DNA from: Smithella sp.
GTDB lineage: Bacteria > Desulfobacterota > Syntrophia > Syntrophales > Smithellaceae
Assembly: GCA_017993615.1 (NCBI GenBank)
Contig: JAGOMJ010000014.1
Location: 1-52,130, forward strand
Length of the DNA stretch: 52,130 bases
Reading direction: 5' to 3'
The stretch's first letter is position 1, and every line of letters starts with the position of its first letter. The notes below the pieces were generated by a model. That model did no database searches and was not told where the DNA came from. It saw only the letters and a list, made by a program, of their open reading frames with translations. Positions 431-6,158 of the stretch are shown here, one piece after another. The position numbers and the translations under genes were made by a program.

Positions 431-2092
431 TCAGTCTTTGAAGATGGCGCCCGTCGAGGACGACGTCACCATTTTCGCATACCTCGCCAGATAACCCGTC
501 GTAATTCTCGGCTTGAATGGTTTCAATGCTTTTCTGCGTTTGGCCAGTTCCTGAGCACCGACTTTCAGGTTCAGTTTCTTGGCCGGTATATCGATGGCGA
601 TGATGTCGCCTTCTTTCACCAGCGCGATCGGCCCGCCTTCTGCTGCTTCTGGTGAGATATGGCCGATGGCTGCGCCCTGTGTACCGCCACTGAAACGTCC
701 GTCGGTTAAGAGAGCAACCGTTTTATCCAGACCCATGCCAACGATTGCCGAAGTGGGAGAAAGCATTTCCCTCATGCCGGGACCGCCTTTGGGACCTTCG
801 TAACGAATGACAACGATATCGCCGCCTTTGATTTTTCCGCCAAGAATCGCCTTAATGGCGTCGTCTTCGCAGTCAAACACACGCGCTTTGCCTTCGTTTT
901 TCTGCATGGCCGGCGCGACCGCCGATTGTTTCACTACCGCTCCGTCCGGCGCGAGATTGCCGCGCAGAATCGCGATACCGCCCTGCTGAGAATAAGCATT
1001 CTTGAGAGTTCTGATGACATCCGTATTCAACACACGGGCATCTTTCAAATTCCCGCCGACGGTTTTGCCGGTTACCGTGATGGCTTTTTCATCAATGACA
1101 CCCAGCGCGCTGATGACTTTCATCACAGCCTGTATGCCGCCCGCCGCGTCCAGATCTTCGATGTGATGACGCCCGGCGGGGCTCAATTTGCAGAGATTGG
1201 GAGTTTTTTCACTGATCCTGTTGAAAAGATCCAGATCGAGTTTGATGCCCGCTTCATGGGCAACGGCCGGAATGTGCAAAACCGTGTTGGTGGAACAGCC
1301 CAGCGCCATGTCGACAGCGATAGCATTTTTAAATGCAGCCAATGTGGCAATGTTGCGCGGCCGGATATTTTTCTTGAGCAAATCCATGATTTTCATTCCG
1401 GCGCGTTTGGCCAGGCGGTGACGAGCGGCCAGGACGGCGGGAATCGTTCCGTTGCCGGGCAAGCCGAGACCCAGCGCTTCGGTGACGCAGTTCATGGAAT
1501 TGGCCGTGTACATGCCGGAACATGAACCGCAGCCGGGGCAGGCACAGTCTTCCAGTTGCTTCAGTTCAGCGGCGGTGATTTTTTTTGCCCTGACGGCGCC
1601 CACGCCTTCAAAAACACTGATCAGGTCAACGGTCTTGTCCTGAAATTTTCCCGCCAGCATCGGACCGCCGCTGATAAAAATGGACGGAATGTTCAGACGC
1701 AGAGCGGCCATGAGCATGCCCGGAATAATCTTGTCGCAGTTGGGAATGAAAACCAGCGCGTCAAAAGGATGAGCCATCGCCATGATCTCGATGGAATCGG
1801 CGATCAGTTCGCGACTGGCCAGCGAAAATTTCATACCTTCGTGCCCCATGGCGATGCCGTCGCAGACGCCAATGACCGGGAACTCCACCGGTGTTCCGCC
1901 GGCCATCCGGATTCCCGCCTTGACATCCTGCGTAATCAAATCCAGATGGATATGTCCGGGAATGATTTCATTGGCCGAATTGACCACGCCGATCAACGGC
2001 CTGGCCAGCTCTTCATCTGTATACCCCATTGCCTTAAACAACGAGCGATGCGGCGCCCGCTCGAAACCTTTTTTCATGAGATCGCTTCGCAT
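431..2092 (-). CDS. ilvD: Dihydroxy-acid dehydratase
   Basis: Converts 2,3-dihydroxy-3-methyl acids to 2-keto acids, the third shared step of valine and isoleucine synthesis; cytosolic iron-sulfur enzyme. The 553 residues match the usual family length. Conserved cysteines lie in [13 protein letters not shown] (C77), [11 protein letters not shown] (C119) and the [17 protein letters not shown] motif (C185, C188, C191), the normal cluster-ligand regions. The ATG at 2092 follows a good Shine-Dalgarno (AGGGAGAG) about 7 bases upstream. It is the last gene of ilvB-N-C-D, separated from ilvC by 98 bases that contain a perfect hairpin. Confidence 0.97.
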
Positions 2093-2140
2093 GGTTATCT
2101 CTCCCTTGATAAAATAAATTTCTAATAGAAACTTCCCCGC

Positions 2141-2163
2141 CCCTCTCCCCTCAAGGGAGAGGG
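2141..2163. repeat. Intercistronic hairpin between ilvC and ilvD
   Basis: CCCTCTCCC (2141-2149) and GGGAGAGGG (2155-2163) form a perfect 9-bp stem with a 5-base loop. No T-run follows on the minus strand, so it is unlikely to be an efficient terminator. Motifs of this CCCTCTCCC/GGGAGAGGG kind occur as dispersed intergenic repeats in many proteobacteria (general knowledge). Here it could set relative ilvC and ilvD levels by mRNA processing or stability (inference). Confidence 0.55.
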
Positions 2164-2190
2164 CGTAAAATGAACTTTTTAAGGAGTCGT

Positions 2191-3249
2191 CTATTTCTTC
2201 TTTCGTTTTTCCGGTCGTAATTCACGCACGGCAGCGCCGGCTTTCCACATTTCCGAATCACGCATCTGTTTAAGTTCTTTTTCCAGTTTGACCCGGTAAT
2301 CGGGAGCACTGTTGGCCTTCAGGACAATGGCTGTTTCCTTGCCACTCGCCACCGACTTATAAAGCTCGGCAAACACGGGTGCAACCGCTTTGCGGAATTT
2401 ATGACGCCAATCCAGAGCGCCGCGCTGAGCCGTGGTGGAGCAATTGGCATACATCCAGTCCATACCGTTTTCTGCAACCAGACGGATCAGGCTCTGTGTC
2501 AGTTCTTCCACCGTTTCGTTAAAAGCTTCACTGGGCGTATGGCGGTGTTTGCGCAGTTCGTTGTACTGGGCTTCCATGATGCCCGCCAGCGCACCCATAA
2601 GCACGCCGCGTTCACCGGTCAAATCGCTGTAAACCTCGTTCTGGAAGGTTGTCGGGAATAAAAATCCGGAGCCGATGGCGATGCCCAGGGCCAGCGTTCT
2701 TTCCATTGCGCGTCCCGTATAATCCTGCTGCACGGCAAAGCTGGAGTTGATACCGCTGCCGTCCAGGAAATTCCGGCGGACGGATGTTCCCGACCCTTTG
2801 GGAGCTACCATGATCACATCAACAAATTTTGGCGGTATAACGCCGGTCTGCTTTCTGTAAACAATGGAAAATCCGTGTGAGAAATATAGAGCGTCGCCCT
2901 CTTTCAGGTTAGCCTTGACCTTGGGCCAAAGAAGTTTCTGCGCCGCATCAGAAACCAGATACTGAATGATGGTACCGCGCTTGACCGCTTCTTCAATCGG
3001 GAAAAGAGTCTTGCCGGGCTTCCATCCATCGGCAATGGCCTTTTTCCAGTAGCGCGTATCTTCCTTGGCCTGGCCGATGATCACATTAATGCCGTTATCC
3101 TTCATATTAGCCGCCTGAGCCGGCCCCTGCACGCCGTACCCCAGCACTGCCACCACATCATTCTTCAAAACTTTCTGAGCTTTTTTCAGAGGAAATTCCT
3201 TCGCCGTAATAACATCTTCGAGAACACCGCCAAAATTAATTTTTGCCAT
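2191..3249 (-). CDS. ilvC: Ketol-acid reductoisomerase (NADP+)
   Basis: Carries out the alkyl migration and NADPH-dependent reduction of acetolactate or acetohydroxybutyrate, the second shared step of branched-chain amino acid synthesis. The Rossmann motif [10 protein letters not shown] is at residues 37-46. The C-terminal knotted helical domain holds the acidic metal-ligand region near [11 protein letters not shown] and the later EETVEEL-like helix. At 352 residues it is slightly longer than common class I enzymes (~330-340) and ends in a basic tail, RPEKRKKK. ilvN lies 31 bases upstream, so the genes are co-transcribed. Confidence 0.97.
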
Positions 3250-3280
3250 ATTAACCCCCTATTGAATAAAATATTATAAT

Positions 3281-3766
3281 TTAGTTTTCCAAATTTAAAG
3301 CGACAATGCCGGTTCTTGTGATATCGGCTATGCCCAGCGGCTCCAGTCTGGCCAGCGCAAAATCAATCTGTGACCGATCACCGGTTATTTCCAGAATCAC
3401 GTAGGTGTCGGCATTGACTATTACCTTCCATTTATTCATGTCAACAGCTTTTTTTATCTGTTCTTTTTTATCGGCCGCCAGATTTAACCGCACGAGGATC
3501 AATTCGCGGTGAATCGATTCCACATTGGTCAAATCATCCACCTGAATTACATCTACCAGCCTTCGCAATTGCCCTTCGATTCTGTTGATGGTGTCCTGCG
3601 TACCCACGGTGGTCATCACGATTTTTGATACTTCGTAATGTGTGGTTGAATTCACGCACAGGCTTTCGATGTTATAACCCTTACCGCCCAGGATGCCGGC
3701 GATTCTCGCCAGCACGTCCGGTTTGTTGTGAACCAGTATTGAAATGATATGTTCCTTCTTTTCCAT
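3281..3766 (-). CDS. ilvN: Acetolactate synthase, small regulatory subunit
   Basis: Regulatory partner of IlvB; the family binds valine through its ACT domain and gives feedback inhibition. Residues about 4-77 form the ACT domain (ISILVHNKPDVLARIAGIL...) and the rest is the ALS small-subunit C-terminal domain; 161 residues is normal. I choose the ATG at 3766 because AGGGAG lies just upstream of it. The frame is open to an earlier ATG at 3781, which has no ribosome-binding site. It is separated from ilvB by about 168 bases occupied by a palindromic repeat. Confidence 0.95.
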   Translation of the reverse strand: MEKKEHIISILVHNKPDVLARIAGILGGKGYNIESLCVNSTTHYEVSKIVMTTVGTQDTINRIEGQLRRLVDVIQVDDLTNVESIHRELILVRLNLAADKKEQIKKAVDMNKWKVIVNADTYVILEITGDRSQIDFALARLEPLGIADITRTGIVALNLEN

Positions 3767-3826
3767 CTTCTCCCTCATCATATTATTTATTATTTAATAC
3801 TTCTTATTTAAAAACTTTGTCAAAAG

Positions 3827-3938
3827 CTACAGAGGCAAGGCGCGCGAAGCCTGAGAAGTGAGGCGTATTTTTCACATACGCCGCAACGCCGAAGGATGAA
3901 GCGCAACGCAGCATCTGGACTTTTCACGAAATCGTCAA
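3827..3938. repeat. REP-like palindromic element, copy B, inside the ilv operon
   Basis: The core is a perfect 7-bp stem GGCGTAT (3862-3868) / ATACGCC (3876-3882) with a 7-base loop. It is flanked by GC-rich imperfect repeats (GGCAAGGCGCGCGAAGCC on the left, GAAGCGCAACGCAGC on the right) and ends in GACTTTTCACGAAATCGTCAA. Similar blocks are common between genes in deltaproteobacteria (recalled, not searched). It fills most of the ilvB-ilvN gap. Position, core sequence and stem size match copy A at 331-401. Confidence 0.6.
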
Positions 3939-5638
3939 TTGATCATTTCTCTGCTCCCCAGCGACATGTTGCTGATCGAATCGCCCGGATGCACCATGGG
4001 GTAAACGCATTCTTCCCGGGAGACACGAAAATCCATCAGCACCGGTTTGTCAATAGCCAGTCCTTCTTTTAACACAGGCTCCACGTCTTCCGGTTTTGTG
4101 GCGCGCAAGCCCACGACGCCGAACGCCTCAGCCAGTTTTACAAAATCAGGCGCATAGGTCATATCTGTAAATGAATACCGTTTTTCGTAAAACAATTCCT
4201 GCCACTGACGCACCATGCCCAGATAGCCGTTATTCAGCAGAACGATTTTTACATTGATTTTATACTGCGCGGCGGTGGCCAGTTCCTGGATATTCATCTG
4301 GATACTGCCGTCGCCGGCAATGTCCACCACGTGCTTGTCGGGAAAAGCGCATTTCACACCGATAGCCGCGGGGAAACCGAATCCCATTGTTCCCAGTCCG
4401 CCGGATGAAATAAACGTATTGGGCTTGTCAAACGGGAAGAACTGCGCGGTCCACATCTGGTTCTGGCCGACTTCCGTTGTAATAATCGCGTCGCCGCCGG
4501 TCAACTTATACAGTGTCTCGATGACAGACTGCGGTTTGATGACGTTGCCGTTCTGGCAATAGGTCAGCGGCACTTTTTCCTTCCAGCCGGCAATTTCATT
4601 CAGCCATTCATTTCTTGCATCCTTGTCATAAGCGTAATTGTGTTCGTCCAGAAATGTGATGAGGTCCTTCAGCACCGCCTGGGTATCGCCGATGATCGGC
4701 AGATCCACGGCAACGTTTTTATTGATGGATGACGGATCAATGTCAATCTGAACTATTTTGGCCTTGGCGGCAAACGTATCGATGGTGCCGGTTACCCGGT
4801 CGTCAAATCTGACGCCCACGGCAATGAGCAGATCACAATGGCTGATCGCCATGTTGGCATAGTACGTTCCGTGCATGCCCAGCATGCCCAGCCAAAGCGG
4901 ATCAGTCCCCGGGAAAGAACCAAGCCCCATCAGGGTTCCGGTCACCGGCATCTGATATTTCCTGGCAAACTCCGTTAGGAGCGATGACGCCCTGCCCAGA
5001 ATGACACCGCCGCCGGTCATAATCAGAGGCTTTTTCGCCGCTGTCAGCAAATCCAGTAAACCGGCCATCTTTTTCGGAGCCGGTTTGTACGCGGCCTCAT
5101 GATTTCTGATTTTGATGTTGGCCGGATCATATTCCGTCTGGGCCGCCATCACATTTTTAGGCAGATCAACAAGCACCGGACCGGGTCTTCCCGAGCGGGC
5201 AATATCAAACGCTTCCTTGATCGTCGCAGCGAGATCGTCAATATTGCGCACCAGAAAATTATGTTTGGTGCACGGACGGGTTATGCCGGTGATATCGCAT
5301 TCCTGAAAAGCGTCGTTGCCGATCAGCGCAGTGGGAACCTGCCCCGTAAAAACAACCAGAGGAATGGAATCCATATTCGCCGTGGCAATGCCGGTGACTG
5401 TGTTGGTTGCGCCGGGACCCGACGTCACCAGACAAACGCCGACTTTTCCGGTGGACCGGGCATAGCCGTCGGCTGCGTGCACGGCTCCCTGCTCATGCCG
5501 GACCAGAATGTGTTTCATGTTGCTTTTGTATATCTGATCGTAAATATCGAGAACAGCGCCTCCGGGATACCCGAAGATAATTTCAACCTTCTCCTCTTCG
5601 AGCGCTTTCAGCAATATTTCTGTCCCCTTCAGTTTCAT
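3935..5638 (-). CDS. ilvB: Acetolactate synthase, large catalytic subunit
   Basis: ThDP-dependent condensation of pyruvate with pyruvate or 2-ketobutyrate, the committed step of Val/Leu/Ile synthesis. The 567 residues hold the N-terminal ThDP Pyr domain with the catalytic glutamate in LVRHEQGAVHAADGYAR (E49), a central FAD-type domain, and a C-terminal PP domain with the GDGS...NN ThDP/Mg motif near residue 435. The ATG at 5638 is preceded by AAGGGGAAAAGGA. It is the first structural gene behind the attenuator (5893-6096), with about 250 untranslated bases between terminator and start. Confidence 0.97.
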   Translation of the reverse strand: MKLKGTEILLKALEEEKVEIIFGYPGGAVLDIYDQIYKSNMKHILVRHEQGAVHAADGYARSTGKVGVCLVTSGPGATNTVTGIATANMDSIPLVVFTGQVPTALIGNDAFQECDITGITRPCTKHNFLVRNIDDLAATIKEAFDIARSGRPGPVLVDLPKNVMAAQTEYDPANIKIRNHEAAYKPAPKKMAGLLDLLTAAKKPLIMTGGGVILGRASSLLTEFARKYQMPVTGTLMGLGSFPGTDPLWLGMLGMHGTYYANMAISHCDLLIAVGVRFDDRVTGTIDTFAAKAKIVQIDIDPSSINKNVAVDLPIIGDTQAVLKDLITFLDEHNYAYDKDARNEWLNEIAGWKEKVPLTYCQNGNVIKPQSVIETLYKLTGGDAIITTEVGQNQMWTAQFFPFDKPNTFISSGGLGTMGFGFPAAIGVKCAFPDKHVVDIAGDGSIQMNIQELATAAQYKINVKIVLLNNGYLGMVRQWQELFYEKRYSFTDMTYAPDFVKLAEAFGVVGLRATKPEDVEPVLKEGLAIDKPVLMDFRVSREECVYPMVHPGDSISNMSLGSREMIN

Positions 5639-5892: not shown

Positions 5893-5930
5893 AAAAAAAG
5901 CCGCCTGTTTCCTTGAGAAAAAGCGGCTTT
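5893..5930 (-). terminator. Intrinsic terminator of the ilv attenuator (3:4)
   Basis: AAAGCCGC (5930-5923) pairs with GCGGCTTT (5904-5897). The stem can be extended inside the loop by TTTC/GAAA. A run of seven T follows the stem on the transcribed strand (5899-5893). It lies about 65 bases beyond the leader peptide stop and 255 bases before ilvB. Confidence 0.88.
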
Positions 5931-5973
5931 ATGCCAAAAACAACAAAGCCGCGGGCTTCAGGGGCCTGCGGCT
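5893..5973 (-). promoter_or_regulatory. ilv operon transcription attenuator (alternative hairpins)
   Basis: Read on the minus strand, four segments follow the leader peptide. Segment 1 is 5973-5961 (AGCCGCAGGCCCC), segment 2 is 5956-5945 (GCCCGCGGCTTT), segment 3 is 5930-5923 (AAAGCCGC) and segment 4 is 5904-5897 (GCGGCTTT), running into a T-run to 5893. Pair 1:2 is a 10-bp stem with one mismatch. Pair 2:3 is a perfect 8-bp antiterminator (GCGGCTTT with AAAGCCGC). Pair 3:4 is a perfect 8-bp terminator. Pairs 2:3 and 3:4 share segment 3 and exclude each other. Segment 1 can also pair with the 3' end of the leader frame (6019-6007). This is the classical ribosome-stalling attenuator design. Confidence 0.88.
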
Positions 5974-5994
5974 AGTATCTTTTATTCCGGTTTC

Positions 5995-6096
5995 TTAAAG
6001 ATACAGAGCAGCAGACCCCGTAAGTACGACTACTACGAGGACCAGTACTTTATTCAGTACCCGGATAATGCCGCTTTGTAAAACTTTAAGAAACAT
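5995..6096 (-). CDS. ilv leader peptide (attenuator peptide)
   Basis: A 33-codon frame, ATG at 6096 to TAA at 5995-5997, lies between the promoter at 6130-6158 and the attenuator. It begins MFLKVLQSGIIR, carries the run VLVLVVVVL at residues 17-25 and ends GSAALYL. Eighteen of 33 residues are Val (8), Leu (8) or Ile (2). Slow translation of the Val/Leu run under amino acid shortage would leave the 3' part of the leader RNA free to pair with segment 1. The ribosome-binding site is weak (GGA about 11 bases upstream). It is analogous to IvbL/IlvL leaders in role; no homology is claimed. Confidence 0.85.
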   Translation of the reverse strand: MFLKVLQSGIIRVLNKVLVLVVVVLTGSAALYL

Positions 6097-6129
6097 AAAC
6101 ACATCATTCCGTTGAATTATTTCGTGCTT

Positions 6130-6158
6130 TCAATAACGAAAAACACTGTCTTTGTCAA
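6130..6158 (-). promoter_or_regulatory. Promoter of the ilv operon
   Basis: A consensus -35 TTGACA lies at 6158-6153, followed after 17 bases by a weak -10 TATTGA (6135-6130). Transcription would start near 6123, about 27 bases before the leader peptide ATG. It lies in the gap after the mrcA stop codon, so the ilv operon need not depend on read-through from mrcA. Confidence 0.6.

Follow-up and report, generated by a model that had tools for sequence, protein, structure and literature searches.

Leader and operon in the window

The DNA analyzed here, called the window throughout, is a 52,130-nt stretch from Smithella sp., a member of the Thermodesulfobacteriota (Syntrophia, Syntrophales). It carries the gene cluster ilvB-ilvN-ilvC-ilvD, and upstream of ilvB sits a leader with a short peptide gene and a chain of segments able to pair in alternative ways. 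The parts of the leader and operon are given below in window coordinates.

6153..6158, minus strand: -35 box TTGACA of the putative leader promoter, with a weak -10 box TATTGA at 6135-6130 and a spacer of 17
5995..6096, minus strand: leader peptide gene of 33 codons, MFLKVLQSGIIRVLNKVLVLVVVVLTGSAALYL followed by the stop codon TAA at 5997-5995; kept in relatives
6048-6022, minus strand: Val/Leu run, codons 17-25 of the leader frame
6069..6094, minus strand: segment -1 (classical segment 1), at the leader start; pairs with 6013-5990 in a fold of 5961-6098
6007..6019, minus strand: segment 0 (classical segment 2), in the leader gene immediately 3' of the codon run
5997..6004, minus strand: 5' arm of the inner helix of hairpin 0:1
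5975..5982, minus strand: 3' arm of the inner helix of hairpin 0:1
5961..5973, minus strand: segment 1 (classical segment 3), partner of segment 0 (antiterminator) or of segment 2 (T1)
5939..5972, minus strand: hairpin 1:2, or T1, with its stem at 5972-5948 and the T-rich tail TTTGTTGTT at 5947-5939
5945..5952, minus strand: segment 2, GCGGCTTT, which pairs with segment 3
5923..5930, minus strand: segment 3, AAAGCCGC, the 5' arm of T2
5893..5930, minus strand: hairpin 3:4, or T2, with its stem at 5930-5897 and a T-run at 5899-5893
3935..5638, minus strand: ilvB, acetolactate synthase large subunit (NCBIfam TIGR00118, above cut-off)
431..3781, minus strand: ilvN (3781-3281), ilvC (3249-2191) and ilvD (2092-431), each above its NCBIfam cut-off

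At the Rfam gathering score the window gave no matches, and 11 leader loci gave only a tRNA. A T-box or other known leader was set aside on this basis.

Alternative pairings in the leader

A sequence-only reading of this DNA had proposed that minus-strand 6019-6007 (GGGGTCTGCTGCT) pairs with 5973-5961 (AGCCGCAGGCCCC), and this outer pairing is present as described: by hand count, its 13 positions comprise 11 Watson-Crick pairs, one T-G pair and one T/C mismatch. The perfect 8-mer nested within it, 6004-5997 (GTATCTTT) with 5982-5975 (AAAGATAC), is there too, but it had been said to span the leader stop codon and touches only the first base of TAA (5997-5995). The 59-nt hairpin from 6019 to 5961 folds at -28.8 kcal/mol with a z-score of -5.63, and none of 200 shuffles was equally stable; chance complementarity was set aside on this ground. 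On sequence and comparative evidence, the leader and its pairings are established and conserved, and the hairpin is real.

The role of "protector" first given to 0:1 was mistaken. With its GC-rich stem ahead of a U-tract, hairpin 1:2 resembles a terminator, and on this reading 0:1 is the classical antiterminator of T1; the two share segment 1 and are mutually exclusive. What had been numbered segments 0, 1 and 2 are segments 2, 3 and 4 of a trp-type attenuator. Classical segment 1, at the leader start (6094-6069), had been missed, and 3:4 would then be an added second terminator. Judged by its sequence, 1:2 looks like an intrinsic terminator and 3:4 like a second one, tied to the first through 2:3. 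In the leader folded as untranslated RNA, 6094-6069 pairs with 6013-5990, a stretch that takes in the inner helix and the latter half of segment 0. The comparison of hairpin energies suggested by the sequence-only reading gives, in kcal/mol, -30.0 for 0:1, -15.8 for 1:2, -16.0 for 2:3 and -17.8 for 3:4.

Conservation among ilv leaders

IlvB is present in 39 of 40 related genomes, the closest copy being 92% identical (G015). Thirty ilv loci were retrieved, and 26 of them have a leader of this kind. Three others, from other families of the order (L026, L028 and L030), have an ilv leader with one terminator and the same registration, the leader end pairing with the 5' arm of the terminator at -19.4 to -19.6 kcal/mol. 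The leader end of L026 and L028 contains a CCCCTGC-ACA-GCAGGGG hairpin. At L015 no leader was found within 900 nt upstream, and its genome has one at the end of another contig.

A pattern scan of genome contigs from 84,980 species returned a further 67 stretches. Since much of the sequence of segments 0 and 1 was prescribed by the pattern, the outer helix of these 67 is not independent evidence; the pattern also required three T after segment 2 and left the inner helix free. By their titles the records are all deltaproteobacterial, Syntrophales-type or assigned more broadly to "Proteobacteria" or "Pseudomonadota", and nearly all are metagenome-assembled genomes. A recognizable leader frame occurs in 65 of the 67 loci and ilvB lies downstream in 64, with no ilvB match in the available DNA of the other three. 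Removal of duplicates reduced 93 leaders to 75, and a leader start could be assigned in 73 of these (not in L040 or L066). GTG rather than ATG is the likeliest start in L034, L049, L050, L071, L072, L092 and L094. A generic promoter scan found no leader promoter. Of 71 leaders, 70 have TTGAC no more than 110 nt ahead of the leader start, whereas mononucleotide shuffles would give 7.0.

In an alignment of 73 leaders, 72 of them distinct, 95.7% of the cells of 0:1 form a standard pair, compared with 40-60% when the arms are slid against each other. At pair 7, C-G, U-G and U-A all occur; pair 5 is found as U-G, A-U and U-A and is unpaired in 34 of 72 rows; and pair 10 is a mismatch (T/C, C/C or A/C) in all 73. 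Covariation between 6007-6019 and 5961-5973 had been named as a check on the pairing, which came through it with support from wider relatives; within the genus the segments are nearly invariant and carry little information on covariation. In the outer helix, four of 12 pairs never vary and one pair has changed in both arms; at least as many such pairs arise in 445 of 500 shuffles. With a helix that hardly varies and that the scan pattern partly prescribed, this count does not decide the matter, and we therefore turned to arm-swap tests.

The inner helix differs considerably in sequence among clades while its pairing is kept. Its mean z-score is -2.70 in the 71 of 75 leaders that could be parsed (51 below -1 and 4 above 0), and its own arms pair at -6.29 against -2.62 for swapped arms (9 representatives from greedy clusters, permutation p 5e-5). 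The same test on only four clusters gave p 0.08, and the greedy clusters were used in its place. The pairing of segment -1 has a mean z-score of -3.06 over 73 leaders, 44 of them below -2, and an energy of -16.7 for own arms against -12.3 for swapped arms (22 representatives, p 5e-5).

Leaders before other operons

A covariance model built from the ilv leaders found matches in 137 of 149 genomes from the order and 141 of 155 from the class; of 395 genomes drawn from the phylum, 37 matched, 23 of them outside the class. These are counts of matches, of which a part was inspected individually. Eighteen weaker matches from the order were examined (L128-L146), and all have a leader rich in aromatic codons. 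Nine are Trp leaders, three are Tyr/Phe leaders before a DAHP synthase gene, and among the Phe leaders five precede a binding protein gene and one an acyl-CoA ligase gene. The gene trpE was identified by NCBIfam at L128, L135, L137, L138 and L143 and by eye only at L131, L145 and L146; the frame shown at L132 is not recognizable as trpE.

From the rest of the phylum we took 20 matches in 18 genomes (L147-L166), with five further listed genomes left out. A leader is present in 19 of the 20, and L165, which has none, looks like a false match. Leaders with Leu or Leu-like runs precede leuA or leuB, those with Val/Leu precede ilvB, and those with Trp precede trpE or a DAHP synthase gene. Tyr/Phe leaders stand before genes for ADH synthase, DAHP synthase, an aminotransferase or a binding protein (L155 by eye only). 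The codon run thus matches the gene: Val/Leu with ilvB, Trp with trpE, Leu with leuA or leuB, and Tyr/Phe with DAHP or ADH synthase. Phe- or Tyr-rich leaders before binding-protein genes were found at L129, L134, L140, L141, L142, L156 and L166, and all six of these loci that were tested, that is, all but L140, have the Pfam domain Peripla_BP_6. These leaders suggest that the proteins serve the uptake of aromatic amino acids, with the codon run predicting the substrate.

Hairpin 0:1 is kept in the leaders of other operons, where own arms pair at -28.8 and swapped arms at -21.3 (p 1e-4, 36 of 37 loci, L153 being left out because its first hairpin has no U-tract); its mean z-score is -3.52, with values below 0 in 36 of 36. 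The pairing of segment -1 is weak outside ilv by z-score (mean -0.91, above 0 in 10 of 36), and the arm-swap test gives -22.6 for own arms against -18.9 (p 1e-4). By script, at least one terminator-like hairpin was found in 37 of 37 of these leaders and at least two in 32, an approximate count, since stems that overlap or are mis-folded were in some cases scored too.

Ribosome position and hairpin choice

We read the leader, with a probability of about 0.78, as a trp-type ribosome-mediated transcription attenuator with a second, linked terminator. Stalling in vivo, the activity of T1 and T2, and the operation of the 2:3 link during transcription are what we infer for it. When charged Val or Leu tRNA is scarce, a ribosome would stall in codons 17-25 and leave segment 0 free ahead of it. 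Free segment 0 would then pair with segment 1 and block T1, and the leftover segment 2 could pair with segment 3 and oppose T2, so that RNA polymerase would read into ilvBNCD. When the amino acids are plentiful, the ribosome would reach the stop codon and cover both segment 0 and the inner helix, and T1 would form, with T2 behind it. If no ribosome is present, segment -1 would occupy segment 0 and both terminators would form.

We compared these states in a folding calculation covering 71 leaders (L045 and L056 were left out), in which the front edge of the ribosome was placed 16 nt past the first base of the P-site codon and the RNA ahead was folded up to segment 3. With the ribosome on the Val/Leu/Ile codons, 2:3, the antiterminator state, is predicted in 71 of 71 leaders (mean 0.98), and in nine of 71 when segment 0 is masked. 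With the ribosome at the stop codon, 1:2 is predicted to form in 69 of 71. A switch is found in 70 of 71 leaders, and its position corresponds to the end of the codon run, at a median of -2 nt from the start of segment 0. For the full transcript with no ribosome, T2 exceeds 0.5 in 64 of 71 and reaches 0.999 in the window. The proposed link between codon position and hairpin choice thus holds at the level of predicted folding, in which a stall frees segment 0 and a ribosome at the stop covers it.

At equilibrium the picture is less clear, and the values count against the model. Given a stall and a transcript ending after segment 2, T1 falls below 0.5 in 55 of 71 leaders; given a stall and the full transcript, T2 does so in only 23 of 71, with a mean P(T2) of 0.66 and a value of 0.69 in the window. 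In the leaders of other operons, a stall at equilibrium does not bring T1 below 0.5 in 30 of 34, the 34 being the 36 leaders minus L152 and L163, whose codon run was not recognized by the script. The stability of 0:1 equals or exceeds that of T1 in 19 of 34 of these leaders, versus 73 of 73 ilv leaders. Given the equilibrium values, the model leans on 0:1 forming first, and equilibrium folding would leave the coupling of T1 and T2 to the order of formation.

Roles of the two terminator-like hairpins

The two hairpins may instead be independent terminators, T2 being a backup with an inherited likeness to T1 in its 5' arm and 2:3 a by-product of the shared GCCGC/GCGGC core, an alternative that we regard as possible though doubtful. 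T1 and T2 do share sequence, and in 48 of 71 leaders 2:3 is not favored over T2 at equilibrium once segment 4 has been made, both as this account would have it. Against it, segment 2 prefers its own segment 3 in the leaders of other operons; the effect is weaker than for 0:1 and the difference is small (-19.7 against -18.0 when swapped, p 1e-4, mean z-score -2.33, 36 leaders).

A second alternative is a his-type attenuator, in which 1:2 is an intermediate hairpin that keeps segment 2 off segment 3, and 3:4 is the sole terminator. Its attraction is the six-segment chain, which the leader shares with the his leader of Salmonella, as the part of the published description available to us presents it (PMC4046918). 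There, likewise, untranslated RNA terminates and stalling gives the alternate set of hairpins; only E:F is described as a terminator in that portion of the text, whereas in the present leaders the middle hairpin has the look of a terminator as well (PMC4046918). The hairpins themselves give a mixed answer. In the window's genus T1 is weaker, with an A/C mismatch in the stem of most members and a broken U-tract (TTTGTTGTT), and L153 has T2 and a first hairpin with no U-tract, as a his-type leader might. Over 75 leaders, however, the 1:2 stem averages -16.8 kcal/mol and its tail 7.1 T in 9 nt, 6 or more T being present in 72 of 75 and in all 26 that the scan pattern had not chosen; for 3:4 the stem mean is -11.9, the tail averages 7.4 T, and all 73 have at least 6 T. 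The tail of T1 is thus as T-rich as that of T2, and its stem is stronger in most species. Long GC-rich stems followed by TTTTTT in many other operons, and L045 (3480-3600), where T1 with its tail stands alone with no second hairpin ahead of the next gene, further argue against a his-type mechanism, which we think unlikely.

Least probable by far is that conservation of segment 0 reflects the C-terminus of the leader peptide (TGSAALYL/GTAAR), such as that of a peptide with a function inside the ribosome tunnel: these residues are conserved in the genus, but the RNA pairing and not the peptide is retained where the frame or stop differs past the codon run (L020/L044, L021/L096, L023, L033, L042 and L095), synonymous differences among 15 genus leaders are fewest in codons 26-33 (0.067; the codon run has 0.127 and codons 2-16 have 0.184), and peptide ends differ among other operons while the pairing stays. 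Selection on the peptide was set aside on account of the frame-shifted leaders and the quiet synonymous sites.

Relation to known leaders

The logic of the proposed mechanism is the one known from trp and his attenuation. The leader group is widespread in its phylum, which consists of anaerobic bacteria, and apparently uncatalogued. In the portion of the literature on the E. coli trp attenuator available to us, that system has the same kind of leader peptide with regulatory codons, and its hairpin 1:2, antiterminator 2:3 and terminator 3:4 correspond to -1:0, 0:1 and 1:2 here; the present leaders differ in having a further terminator-like hairpin downstream, linked to the first by a shared strand (PMC1183508). 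The ilvBNC leader of Corynebacterium glutamicum, as covered by the accessible part of its description, controls the same genes with terminator, antiterminator and antiantiterminator hairpins and Leu/Val control codons, and differs in having one terminator, which the antiterminator overlaps at three nucleotides (PMC11857589). The rimP-leader of Gammaproteobacteria shares tandem terminators and a potential antiterminator, and the available text mentions no leader peptide with regulatory codons (PMC2965389). Our literature search found no paper combining tandem terminators, attenuation and an antiterminator, and none on such leaders in this phylum; it mostly did not cover subscription journals, and Vitreschak et al. 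2004, on attenuation in proteobacteria, may overlap with the present results.

In the part available to us, a 2013 survey based on Rfam suggested a possible gammaproteobacterial origin of amino-acid attenuators with few transfers, and covered only four such motifs, the delta lineage being listed only through Desulfovibrionales (PMC3766115). Leaders of one layout here precede at least six kinds of gene in a different phylum. We give roughly even odds to a broader proposal, that these leaders form an attenuator class across the Thermodesulfobacteriota in which one decision by the ribosome throws two serial terminators, used as a cassette before ilv, leu, trp, aromatic and transporter genes with the codon run swapped. 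If so, the antiterminator of the first terminator would free the strand that disarms the second, making a double lock with low leak. For his, a model given in the accessible part of one source has the extra hairpin lowering leak (PMC1183508), and two terminators in series would be a second way to the same end.

Neighboring features of the locus

The interval between T2 and ilvB contains, at window positions 5884-5809, inverted repeats (AAATTTCAG...CTGAAATTT) and a CCCCGGAGCGAAGCGG stretch. L003, L009 and L014 have similar stretches in the corresponding position, as would be expected of a spreading intergenic element. The T1 stem (5973-5947) is terminator-like on the plus strand as well, with the tail AGTATCTTTT, and the covariance model gives a 25-bit match on the plus strand at 5961-6050.
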